Source: Lachnospiraceae bacterium
GTDB lineage: Bacteria; Bacillota; Clostridia; Lachnospirales; Lachnospiraceae
DNA: 20,139 nucleotides
Direction of reading: 5' to 3'
Assembly (NCBI GenBank): GCA_017476305.1
Contig: JAFVAA010000535.1
Span: 1-20,139 of the forward strand
The translations under genes were made by a program, and so were the position numbers. The notes beneath the pieces were generated by a model. That model was not told where the DNA came from and made no database searches. It worked only from the letters and a program-made list of their open reading frames with translations. Position 1 is the first letter of the stretch, and the number at the start of each line of letters is the position of its first letter. Shown here piece after piece: positions 5,659-16,079 of the stretch.

Positions 5659-5957
5659 AAAAAAAGCCGCCTCCTTTTCGCTTTTTACAGACATTTACTG
5701 ATCTAAGGTTTCCCTAATGTCTGTTCATTACAGCGGAACAAGTGGTGACTGTACACTTATCCGGGCATGTCATACTGATACGTAAATAAAGTATGATTTC
5801 CCTCTGTCCGGGCAGAAAGCTGCCTCTGCAGAATATCCAATTGTACAGTGACTTGTCGCCAGTTTTCTAACTTGACATTCGCTCCACGGAAAACCTGCGC
5901 TTACAGTATGTAAGAACGCAGCAACCTCACGCTTCACAGCTATCAATGTCACAACAA
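5659..5957 (-). promoter_or_regulatory. Structured 5' leader of the S10 operon (candidate ribosomal-protein leader)
   Basis: The mRNA from the predicted start site to rpsJ is about 300 nt and holds no convincing gene. It contains several strong helices. One hairpin is at 5895-5921, with CTGCG/CGCAG and CTTAC/GTAAG stems. A long-range helix pairs 5748-5755 with 5842-5849 (8 bp) and continues as 5738-5743 with 5851-5856 (6 bp). That helix encloses two small hairpins: 5770-5776 with 5790-5796 (7 bp), and 5811-5815 with 5820-5824 (5 bp). A final 9-bp hairpin (5687-5695 with 5716-5724) lies 12 bases upstream of the rpsJ Shine-Dalgarno. S10 leaders are autoregulated by L4 in E. coli; that this leader is regulatory is an inference. 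Confidence 0.6.
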
Positions 5958-9100: not shown

Positions 9101-10495
9101 ATGAACACGAATATGTACCAAATTGATTTAAAAAAAACCTGCACTGTCTATTTCATGGGAATCGGCGGAATCAGTATGAGCGGCTTTGCCCGTCTTTTCC
9201 TTGAGAACGGTTTTACCGTAAAGGGATCGGATTCCTCGGAAAGTAAAATCACCAAACAGCTTGTTTCATCAGGCATTGATATAGTATATGGACAAAAAGC
9301 CGAAAATATTACAAATGATATTGATTTTATTGTTTATACTGCTGCCATCCAGCCCGATAATCCTGAATTCGTCGCAGCAAAAGCATCCGGAATCCCTATG
9401 ATGGAGCGTGCGGTCATGGTCGGTCAGGTGATGAAGAACTATAAAAATGCCATCGGGATCTCCGGAACGCACGGAAAAACGACCACTACTTCCATGCTGA
9501 CACATGTTTTTCTGGCCGCCAAAAAGGATCCTACGATTTCCGTGGGCGGTATTTTAGACTCCATTGGTGGAAATATCCGGATCGGACATTCCGAAAATTT
9601 TATCACCGAGGCCTGTGAATATACCAATAGTTTTTTGAAATTTTTCCCTACGGCAGAAATCATATTGAATATCGAAGCAGATCATTTGGATTTTTTTAAG
9701 GATTTGGAGGATATTCGCCATTCCTTCCACGAGTACGCAAAGCTTTTACCGGCAGATGGTGTTTTAGTGGCCAATGCAGAGATTGCTTCCCTTTCAGAAA
9801 TCACCGAATGAATCACCTGCCCGGTCATTACCTTTGGACTATGTGAAAACGCTGAATATACCGCTAAGAACATTGTTTTTGACGAAAACGGCCATGCTGC
9901 CTTCGAGCTGGTACATAAAAATGTCCCGACCGGAGATACGATCCATCTGGGCGTCATCGGCATGCACAATGTATCAAATGCCCTCTCTGTCATTGCGCTC
10001 TCTTTATTCTATGGCATCCCAATGGAAACGGTAAAAGAAGGGCTTCTGAATTTTCACGGGACCGAACGCAGATTTGAAAAGAAAGGAACCTTCCATGGCG
10101 TGACCGTAATCGATGATTATGCACATCATCCGACCGAAATCACCGCCACCCTGACCGCTGCAGAAAAATATCCGCATAACCACCTGTGGTGCGTATTCCA
10201 GCCACACACCTACAGTCGTACAAAGGCACTCTTAAAGGATTTTGCAGCTGCCCTTTCCCATGCGGAAAATGTAATCTTAACAGATATCTATGCTGCCAGG
10301 GAAAAGGATCCGGGGGATATTTCCTCAAAAACCCTGCAAGCGGAAATGGAAAAACTTGGAAAAGAAGTGTATTATATTTCCGACTTTGAAGAAATAAAAA
10401 AATTTTTATCAGAAAAATGTTTCGACGGTGATTTGTTGATAACTATGGGGGCTGGAAATGTCGTGAATATAGGCGAAGACTTAGTTGAAAAATAA
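9101..10495 (+). pseudogene. murC: UDP-N-acetylmuramate--L-alanine ligase (MurC), frame interrupted by in-frame TGA
   Basis: MurC joins L-alanine to UDP-N-acetylmuramic acid, using ATP, in the cytoplasm; it is the first peptide step of peptidoglycan synthesis. GGAGG precedes the ATG by 7 bases. The first 236 codons contain the Rossmann motif GIGGISMSG (20-28) and the ATP loop SGTHGKTTT (121-129). Codon 237 (9809-9811) is TGA. The same frame then reads ITCPVITFGLCENAEY and continues through FHGTERRFE (318-326), DDYAHHPTE (338-346) and PHTYSRTK (368-375) to a TAA at 10493-10495. Both halves are complete and undecayed, and the full 464-codon length is normal. One base change (for example GGA to TGA) explains it. 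It is called a pseudogene only formally: sequencing error, readthrough or a second murC are all possible. Confidence 0.85.
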
Positions 10496-10774: not shown

Positions 10775-11872
10775 ATGGATCAGATCTTATTATGCACGAA
10801 CCACCTTCCGCCCGTTACTACTATATATAATTCATTTATCCAAAACGAAATGCTGGATGCGAACGGCAGTTATGTAAAGGTATATTTATATCTTTCTATG
10901 TGCATTCAGTCCGGGAACACCTCCTTTTCCATCTCATCACTCGCAGATCAGATGGAAAACACAGAAAATGATATTATAAGAGCACTGAATTATTGGGAAA
11001 AAAAGGAGCTCCTCGTTCTGCAGCGCGAAGAAACGAACGGAGCAATTACGGGCATTGAGTTTTTAGTTCCGGAAAAGCAGGAAAAAAGCACAAGACCTGC
11101 TGTCCTGCCGGAAAAACAGAACAGTCAGATAACTACAGAAGCGCCAAAGCCTTCAAAGGCAGAAAAGCCTTCCATCCACATTACAGCAGAGCAAAGCTTT
11201 CGATTGGCAGAAAACCAGGATTTTATATGGATTTCCCAGATTGTGGAAAACTTTCTGGAACGGCCTTTAAAGTCCACCGAGATAGAGCTTCTCATGTACT
11301 TATATGATAATCTGCATTTTTCAAAAGAATTGATCCTGTATTTATATGAGTATTGCTGTACTTTAGGAAAAACGCACCTGAAATATGTACAGGCTGTAGC
11401 ATTTTCCTGGGCAGAACAGGGGATTTCGACTCCGGAGCAGGCAAAAGCCGCTTCCACCGCTTACAGCACTGTTCATACTGCTGTTTCCAAGGCATTTGGT
11501 CTGAACAGGACCCTTGGAGCCATCGAAATACAGTACATCAACCGCTGGAGCAACGAATGGAATTTTGACCTGTCCGCCATTCTGGAAGCCTGCAACAGAA
11601 CCGTATTAGCAATCCAAAAAGCGGATTTTAAGTATACTGACAGCATCCTTGCCAATTGGCACGAAAACGGAGTACATACTTTACAGGAAATCCAGATTGC
11701 CGACGAAAGCTTTGCAAAAAAGAAGGCGTCCAAAAGCAGTGCCGCAAACGGAAAACAGTACCAGAATCCACACAGCAGTACATCTTCTAAAAATCAATTC
11801 CAGGCATTTCAGCAAAGAGATGTTTCTGCCGAAGAGATGAAGCTATTAGAAAAACAGCTGTTATCAAGATAA
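10775..11872 (+). CDS. DnaD-domain primosome protein with two DnaB_2/DnaD domains
   Basis: DnaD and DnaB of Firmicutes act between DnaA and the helicase loader at replication start and restart. The 365-residue product has a winged-helix-like N-terminal part (about 30-90) and a low-complexity linker. Two DnaD-type helical domains follow, at about 148-225 and 235-310. Each ends in the YxxxIxxxW-like motif: KYVQAVAFSW in the first, degenerate, and KYTDSILANW in the second. The tail is a disordered Ser/Gln-rich segment. AGGGGG lies 7 bases before the ATG. The dnaI/dnaC-like loader follows, supporting a primosome role. Having both DnaD domains, it resembles the merged DnaB/DnaD proteins of Clostridia, so I give no gene symbol. 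Confidence 0.88.
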   Translation: MDQILLCTNHLPPVTTIYNSFIQNEMLDANGSYVKVYLYLSMCIQSGNTSFSISSLADQMENTENDIIRALNYWEKKELLVLQREETNGAITGIEFLVPEKQEKSTRPAVLPEKQNSQITTEAPKPSKAEKPSIHITAEQSFRLAENQDFIWISQIVENFLERPLKSTEIELLMYLYDNLHFSKELILYLYEYCCTLGKTHLKYVQAVAFSWAEQGISTPEQAKAASTAYSTVHTAVSKAFGLNRTLGAIEIQYINRWSNEWNFDLSAILEACNRTVLAIQKADFKYTDSILANWHENGVHTLQEIQIADESFAKKKASKSSAANGKQYQNPHSSTSSKNQFQAFQQRDVSAEEMKLLEKQLLSR

Positions 11873-14260: not shown

Positions 14261-14289
14261 TTGAATTTTCCAGAAAAACTTGCTATTAT
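14261..14289 (+). promoter_or_regulatory. Promoter of the secreted amidase-like gene
   Basis: TTGAAT (14261-14266) and TATTAT (14284-14289) are 17 bases apart, starting 21 bases after the prs stop. CTATTA and TAATAG around the -10 box form a small inverted repeat with loop TTGG. The start site near 14296 would give a leader of about 160 nt. Confidence 0.5.
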
Positions 14290-14313
14290 TGGTAATAGTT
14301 TCCAAAAAAACTG

Positions 14314-14417
14314 CAGATCTTTTTCTGTTTCAGAGGATTGATCCGATGAAATTTTACGGAGACATGGTTATTGAAAAAATTTTAAAAGGAATTACAGATC
14401 TTTTCCTTTTCAGAAGA
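14314..14417. repeat. Imperfect direct repeat in the leader of the secreted-protein gene
   Basis: The stretch starting CAGATCTTTTTCTGTTTCAG at 14314 recurs in slightly changed form at 14395 (CAGATCTTTTCCTTTTCAGA), about 81 bases later. The second copy is also part of a small inverted repeat (AAAAGGAA / TTCCTTTT). Both lie in the untranslated region before the ATG at 14454. Confidence 0.5.
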
Positions 14418-14453
14418 AGAAAAATGAATCGTAAAAAAGAGAGGTACTTTTCC

Positions 14454-16079
14454 ATGAAAAATTTTCACAGGCACATATCCATAAAAACTTTTTTTCTGCT
14501 GGCATGCACGCTGCAATGCATCCTGCTATTATCCCCGGTAAAAGCAGAAGCAAAGCCCGGCGATGATTATTCTCCCGCAAAAGCGATCGCATATGCTGAT
14601 TCCTGCTTTAAAGAAGTCAATGGAACACATCAGGCAAGCCCAAGCAAAAAATATGGAAGTGAACTATGCGCCGGCTATGTTTCCCAATGTCTCAGGGAGG
14701 GCGGTATGAGCGAGGACGCCTCCTGGTATTGGCACGGAATCGGAAAAACTCCGGATGCCTGGCGAATTTCCACTTCTTTATACAGTTATTTGAAAAAATG
14801 CGGATACCAGATCATCAGTTCACCAAACATCTCACAGGTAAATCCGGGAGATGTTATCTTTTATTACACCGGGAGCGGATGGGGACATTGCGCTATCTGC
14901 GTTGGCAAAAACAGCGCAGGGACTCCCCTCATCAATGCCTACAATAACCCGCATTATCATTATTCGAATTGGCGTCTTTATTATAGTAAGGTATGCGTTG
15001 TTTCCATGGACAGTAAGACGCAGACTCCTGAAATCGAGGAAGCGGCTCTGGCGAACGGAAAGGAGATTACGCTTTCCTGTGCTACCTCTGATTCTACCAT
15101 TTACTATACTACAGACGGGAAAAATCCTACCAAGTCTTCTACGGTATATAAGAAGCCCTTTACCTTAAAGAAAAGCAGTGAAATCAAGGCATTTGCCGTT
15201 TCAGAATCCAGAAGCAACAGCGATATAAGCTCTTCCTATATCAATACGGAAAAGGTACTGGAGGATGGAATCTATCTGATTCTTCCCACAGGTGATAAGA
15301 CCAAGACCTTAGGAATTTCCTCCTCCTCCACCAAATCAGGGGCAGCAGTGAAATTATTGAAAAAGAACGAGAACTATGACAGGAAGATCACTTTGACCTA
15401 TGTGAAGAACGGGTATTATACCATTACCTTTTTGCATTCCGGCATGGCTCTTACAGAGATTTCAAAGACAGTGGCTGCCAATATCGATCCTACCTCCACA
15501 GAATCTGCCGTGACTATAAAAAAGAACGCTGATATCGTAGCGGTAACGGAGCAGACTACCTATTCCATTTGCCAGAAAAAGGCTTCCGGCGCAAAAAATC
15601 AGCAGTGGAAGCTCATTTGTACCGGCAAAAATAAATTTATTTTACAAAACGCAAAAACTTCTCATTATTTGACTTTAGATAAAGCGCTGACCACTGGAGA
15701 AAAGGCATATCCCGAAGAAAAGAGCATTACAGCGGTGCAGGAATTTACCATTACTCCTACTTTGAAGTCCGAAATCAAGCTTACCGATGAAAAATTACCA
15801 GTCAGCCTAAAGCTGAAGCAGGCTTTTGACTTTTACGGCATTTTGACCTCTAATTACAAGCTGGCCTCTGTGCAGATCATCATTCAGGACAAGAATAAAA
15901 AGACAACTGCCTCCGCATCCGATACACCGAACAAAACGACTTACAGCATACTGACACTATCCCCAAAAATCAAATTTGGAAAGCTTTCTGCAGGCACGTA
16001 TTCTTTTATCGTAAAGGCAAAAGATGCCACAGGGCAGACGACAGTAGTTGTCAATAAAAAATTTAAAGTTACCAAATGA
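14454..16079 (+). CDS. Secreted modular protein: amidase-like domain, chitobiase-C-like and ricin-type lectin-like domains
   Basis: The 541-residue product starts with a signal peptide: basic MKNFHRHISIK, then a hydrophobic stretch to about residue 28, with likely cleavage after AEA near 33. An amidase_6/CHAP-like cysteine domain follows (about 40-187). It has GSELCAGYVSQCLREGG with Cys72 as the probable nucleophile, PGDVIFYY, GWGHCAI with His145, and HYHYSNW. Next is a CHB_HEX_C-like beta domain (about 192-263; IYYTTDGKNPT), a ricin-type trefoil-like region (about 270-420; QQWKLICTG) and a C-terminal beta-sandwich. It probably cuts peptidoglycan or another cell-surface polymer outside the cell; the substrate is unknown. 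An earlier in-frame start (14280) is rejected because GAGAGG lies nine bases before 14454 and a signal peptide then begins the protein. Confidence 0.85.
   Translation: MKNFHRHISIKTFFLLACTLQCILLLSPVKAEAKPGDDYSPAKAIAYADSCFKEVNGTHQASPSKKYGSELCAGYVSQCLREGGMSEDASWYWHGIGKTPDAWRISTSLYSYLKKCGYQIISSPNISQVNPGDVIFYYTGSGWGHCAICVGKNSAGTPLINAYNNPHYHYSNWRLYYSKVCVVSMDSKTQTPEIEEAALANGKEITLSCATSDSTIYYTTDGKNPTKSSTVYKKPFTLKKSSEIKAFAVSESRSNSDISSSYINTEKVLEDGIYLILPTGDKTKTLGISSSSTKSGAAVKLLKKNENYDRKITLTYVKNGYYTITFLHSGMALTEISKTVAANIDPTSTESAVTIKKNADIVAVTEQTTYSICQKKASGAKNQQWKLICTGKNKFILQNAKTSHYLTLDKALTTGEKAYPEEKSITAVQEFTITPTLKSEIKLTDEKLPVSLKLKQAFDFYGILTSNYKLASVQIIIQDKNKKTTASASDTPNKTTYSILTLSPKIKFGKLSAGTYSFIVKAKDATGQTTVVVNKKFKVTK

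Follow-up and report, generated by a model that had tools for sequence, protein, structure and literature searches.

The gene considered here belongs with MurC, the UDP-N-acetylmuramate--L-alanine ligase (TIGR01082; solved relative 9ir5). The likeness is a match to the family along its full length and above cut-off, once a single stop codon is passed over; the difference is that stop, one in-frame TGA at codon 237 of the deposited sequence. The closest described counterpart of such a lesion is the spurious pseudogene (Cooley and Wright 2024, PMC11017572). According to that study, the occurrence of spurious stops within genes of public bacterial assemblies goes with low coverage and with the platform and assembler used, and it is correlated with assembly error overall. 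Two features of the present case resemble the spurious pseudogenes described there: the gene is intact apart from one internal stop standing alone, and genes of this kind are in excess across the draft. The settings differ, in that the study drew on RefSeq assemblies with reads and near-identical neighbours, whereas our analysis used assembly sequence alone and the closest MurC was 91% identical.

The window, by which we mean the whole stretch of DNA analysed (20,139 nucleotides), is one contig (C415) of a draft of 4,010,710 bases in 957 contigs, with 79.23% completeness and 2.67% contamination. The murC frame occupies positions 9101–10495 of its forward strand and comprises 464 codons from ATG to TAA; its sole internal stop is the TGA at 9809–9811, present in the deposited sequence as the earlier note had reported. 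With that one TGA passed over, the whole frame scored 462 bits against TIGR01082 (cut-off 335.1) and spanned profile positions 2–448 of 449; by this score it belongs to the MurC family, though not as one uninterrupted reading frame. When the two pieces were scanned apart, they matched the profile separately and in order. Codons 1–236 (9101–9808, forward strand) encode the N-terminal domain together with the larger part of the ATP-binding central domain, with the motif GTHGKTTTT (profile 2–219, 238.7 bits). Codons 238–464 with the TAA stop (9812–10495, forward strand) encode the remainder of the central domain and the C-terminal domain, with DDYAHHPTE and PHTYSRTK both present; the coding part, 9812–10492, gave 211.5 bits over profile 236–448, which bears out the earlier claim that the gene continues intact and without decay beyond the stop.

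The same absence of decay was seen residue by residue. MurC departed only once, at residue 13, from columns conserved in more than 97% of 240 homologues gathered in two protein searches, and where 25 relatives are invariant it carried a single private change, compared with 0–6 in those relatives themselves. The earlier note had proposed comparing codon 237 among related strains. Of 27 genus relatives, two gave no murC match; in the other 25 the gene had no internal stop and codon 237 was a sense codon in every one. Across the 228 homologues (of 240) without a gap at this column, the residues were G (121), D (67), N (21), E (7), S (4), C (2), V (2), and H, R, L, and K once each, and the column exceeds 75% of the 464 MurC columns in variability. 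The closest homologue has Gly. Judged on these alignments, the change in murC appears to be an isolated one, at a tolerant position, in a gene without decay.

Protein searches for same-species copies reached few close sequences. The closest named locus to the C-terminal half of MurC was in the Lachnospiraceae MAG RUG14105, at 83% protein identity. When the 236-residue truncated MurC was used as query, none of the best 120 matches listed exceeded 80–82% identity, nor did the window's own fragment appear among them; our guess is that the latter may sit inside the 90% cluster of one two-member entry (P0002). The DnaD-like protein encoded at 10775–11872 was found at 100% identity only as the window's own (two contigs), with the next best match at 69%. 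This drop indicates that the species is barely sampled in the protein database, and the absence of an intact same-species murC is therefore uninformative.

Based on similar stops in other essential genes of the assembly, the TGA in murC is very probably a sequencing or assembly consensus error. The living organism would then have an intact and ordinary murC, and the TGA would come from one base called wrongly in the consensus, the draft being fragmented and probably of low coverage. Much of the case lies outside the window. A TAG in prfA, encoding release factor 1 (RF1), was first noticed during a search for release factor 2; it lies in frame at L134:1740 (contig C92), and the gene was without an internal stop in all 26 relatives that matched over cut-off. 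At columns invariant in 20 relatives, prfA had five residues private to this genome, joint highest among the 21 sequences (range 0–5), and four of these five changes, including the stop, fell within 12 codons (residues 301–312). Clustering of this kind was rare when five changes were placed randomly among the 240 invariant columns (permutation, P = 0.0006), and the patch around the TAG looks as would be expected of a poor consensus. Three further stops occurred in neighbouring genes on a single 5.8-kb contig (C280), chosen without knowledge of its content: TAG in dxr, TAA in rseP, and TAA in ispG (L140:1226, 3313, and 4147, respectively). The last of these genes was intact in all 24 relatives with a match. 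The gene for IF2, infB, contained one in-frame TAG. In dxr, rseP, ispG, and infB, the pieces on either side of the stop, scanned apart, matched consecutive parts of one family. The same was true of three less essential genes, those of a subtilase, an amidohydrolase, and an FlK thioesterase, each interrupted by TAG; for a fourth less essential gene, that of an ABC ATPase with a TAG at its Walker A motif, a family match was obtained for the right piece alone. Searching with the relatives' open reading frames (tblastn) recovered the murC and prfA stops again and added a TGA that lies 19 bases from the end of a contig, in a penicillin-binding-protein gene next to murD. Two other stops from this search (L089:2625 and window position 5911) were dropped, their alignments being gapped or non-coding. 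The residue of the relatives could be read at few stops; it was Glu for prfA and Gly for both murC and the penicillin-binding-protein gene. All three sites fit one transversion, but such numbers are too small for a bias in substitution type to be claimed.

How unusual these stops are was assessed with a junction scan, which records stops lying between two coding-like stretches in one frame. The window and 80 further contigs made up the sample; of its 430,673 bases, 61,933 were N (29 contigs were all N) and 368,740 were readable. The first scan of the murC-bearing genome gave 15 junctions; 11 were checked by scanning the pieces apart, and in seven the pieces matched one family. With one codon model applied to all genomes, the scan gave 17 junctions for this genome (369 kb), 22 for the relative G001 (659 kb), and one for the relative G017 (114 kb). 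Raw junction counts alone do not tell the genomes apart; only the homology check does. Both pieces fell in one family at five of the 17 junctions here (14 of them scanned) and at none of the 22 in G001 (all scanned), at an E-value of 1e-3 here, 1e-5 for 18 of the 22 junctions in G001, and 1e-3 for the rest of that genome; at 1e-5 the FlK case is lost and the count here becomes four. The genome thus has more internal stops in conserved genes than its relatives (5/17 junctions against 0/22 in G001, with prfA, murC, and ispG intact in the relatives), as in the description of spurious pseudogenes. Sensitivity of the scan was low, since murC and prfA were themselves missed. Junctions judged to be ordinary neighbours or unclear were those in L132, L136, L158 (three), L106, L133, L139, L166, and L086, together with L084:4627; those in L082, L116 (two), and L142 were judged from sequence alone. 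Two G001 junctions may mark non-essential genes that are broken, one at L224:1572 in an AAA-ATPase/PDDEXK_9 gene and one at L230:7542 in a YaaA-like piece.

A cell without working RF1, IF2, MurC, Dxr, and IspG is not viable. Loss of these functions being lethal, most or all of the stops in these genes would be absent from the cells, barring free readthrough of all three stop codons; and no single recoding explains them all, because TAG, TAA, and TGA are all involved. Several observations count against the error reading. The murC contig is mostly clean, rpoB is free of internal stops, and murC is without an excess of odd residues; the raw junction counts are similar to those of G001, and the essential genes of the relatives are not all stop-free. 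About 19 of the 20 kb of the contig appears clean, with murC the one gene among 18 checked in the window to hold an internal stop, and in this assembly no match to rpoC was found. Errors in the assembly are patchy rather than everywhere. As for the relatives, infB had one TAA in each of G017, G026, and a fragment (C294) of G016, which could be its true end, and there was one internal TGA in rpoC of G011 (contig C26) and one in a prfB-like match of G016 (contig C190).

The other accounts of the TGA share much of the same evidence. A real nonsense mutation, whether a harmful variant of recent origin that the consensus happened to capture or one covered by a second murC in the missing part of the genome, is unlikely. 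One base change would turn a glycine codon, the class found in the closest homologue, into TGA, and the assembly is incomplete; still, the genome search for the second murC envisaged by the earlier note found none over the TIGR01082 cut-off among the 79% of the genome present, and as many coincidences of this sort would be required for the five or more further essential genes that carry such a lesion. Two other matches to the murC family (113 and 87 bits) were set aside as second copies. On our reading of the sequences, one is MurD (contig C763), flanked on one side by a penicillin-binding-protein gene and on the other by an FtsW-like gene, and the other is a Ddl-MurF fusion (contig C808). Improbable to a further degree is a real TGA read through often enough for viability, by way of a leaky UGA, a weak release factor, or a suppressor tRNA. 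The tolerant column at codon 237 (almost any inserted residue should do) and the A that follows the stop would suit this account, as would a tRNA-Trp(CCA) at L070:1501–1572 (contig C534) with A at the position counted as 24; this base is a feature of the Hirsh UGA suppressor of E. coli and is natural in Bacillus. Yet readthrough of UGA would not account for prfA, infB, dxr, ispG, and rseP, whose stops are TAG or TAA, and the suppressor tRNA suggested earlier was not seen: none of the 22 tRNAs in the assembly, an incomplete set, nor any in the sampled loci had an anticodon matching a stop. With about one fifth of the genome missing, the lack of a tRNA or of a second murC is no proof. Release factor 2 was uninformative as a cause, prfB lying in two pieces at contig ends (C690 and C329).

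Two polypeptides that reassemble into a split MurC, another option of the earlier note, are very improbable. The stop does fall at a variable column, but the cut lies inside the central ligase domain, none of the relatives has a split gene, and the first in-frame ATG, GTG, or TTG beyond the TGA is at 9962, 50 codons downstream; an ATG at 9808 overlaps the TGA and belongs to another frame. About equally remote is the idea that termination is relaxed in general in this lineage, a Lachnospiraceae lineage of rumen type; its essential genes, bearing all three stops, would then be read through, and the in-frame UAG of RF1 could set the level of RF1. The in-frame UGA of RF2 sets the level of RF2 through frameshifting. 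Were the stops real, this organism would show a tolerance of nonsense codons that is not known elsewhere. Least credible of all is selenocysteine or a reassigned TGA, for which one gene with TGA in frame can be cited. The earlier judgement that general TGA reassignment is unlikely was well founded: in the window TGA ends rplV and the gene at 14280–16079, and the 338 long open reading frames of the sampled contigs end in TAG (100), TAA (153), or TGA (85), so that TGA and TAG are ordinary terminators and general reassignment of either was rejected. Selenocysteine was likewise rejected, as far as the sequence present goes. In the assembly, 79% complete, neither a tRNA-Sec over the gathering score nor a SelB over cut-off was found (the best SelB match was infB), the RNA around the murC TGA folded no better than shuffled sequences (z = 0.44) and so gave no signal of a stem-loop after the TGA, and relatives show Gly, Asp, or Asn at codon 237, not Cys.

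A consensus error thus remains the favoured reading of the murC stop. Of the earlier interpretation, the observed facts (an in-frame TGA, no decay, no reassignment) held, and sequencing error, one of the options it listed, is the one that the isolated stops in unrelated essential genes of the assembly favour; a second murC, a suppressor, and a split protein were not supported. The biological puzzle is weakened, since lesions of this kind also affect other essential genes of the draft that are unrelated to murC. Where a draft assembly shows a stop inside an essential gene, it is best weighed first against the number of such stops in the other essential genes of that assembly. Elsewhere in the window, the gene at 14280–16079 may encode a secreted protein, with matches to Amidase_6, CHB_HEX_C_1/Fn3_assoc, and RicinB_lectin_2.
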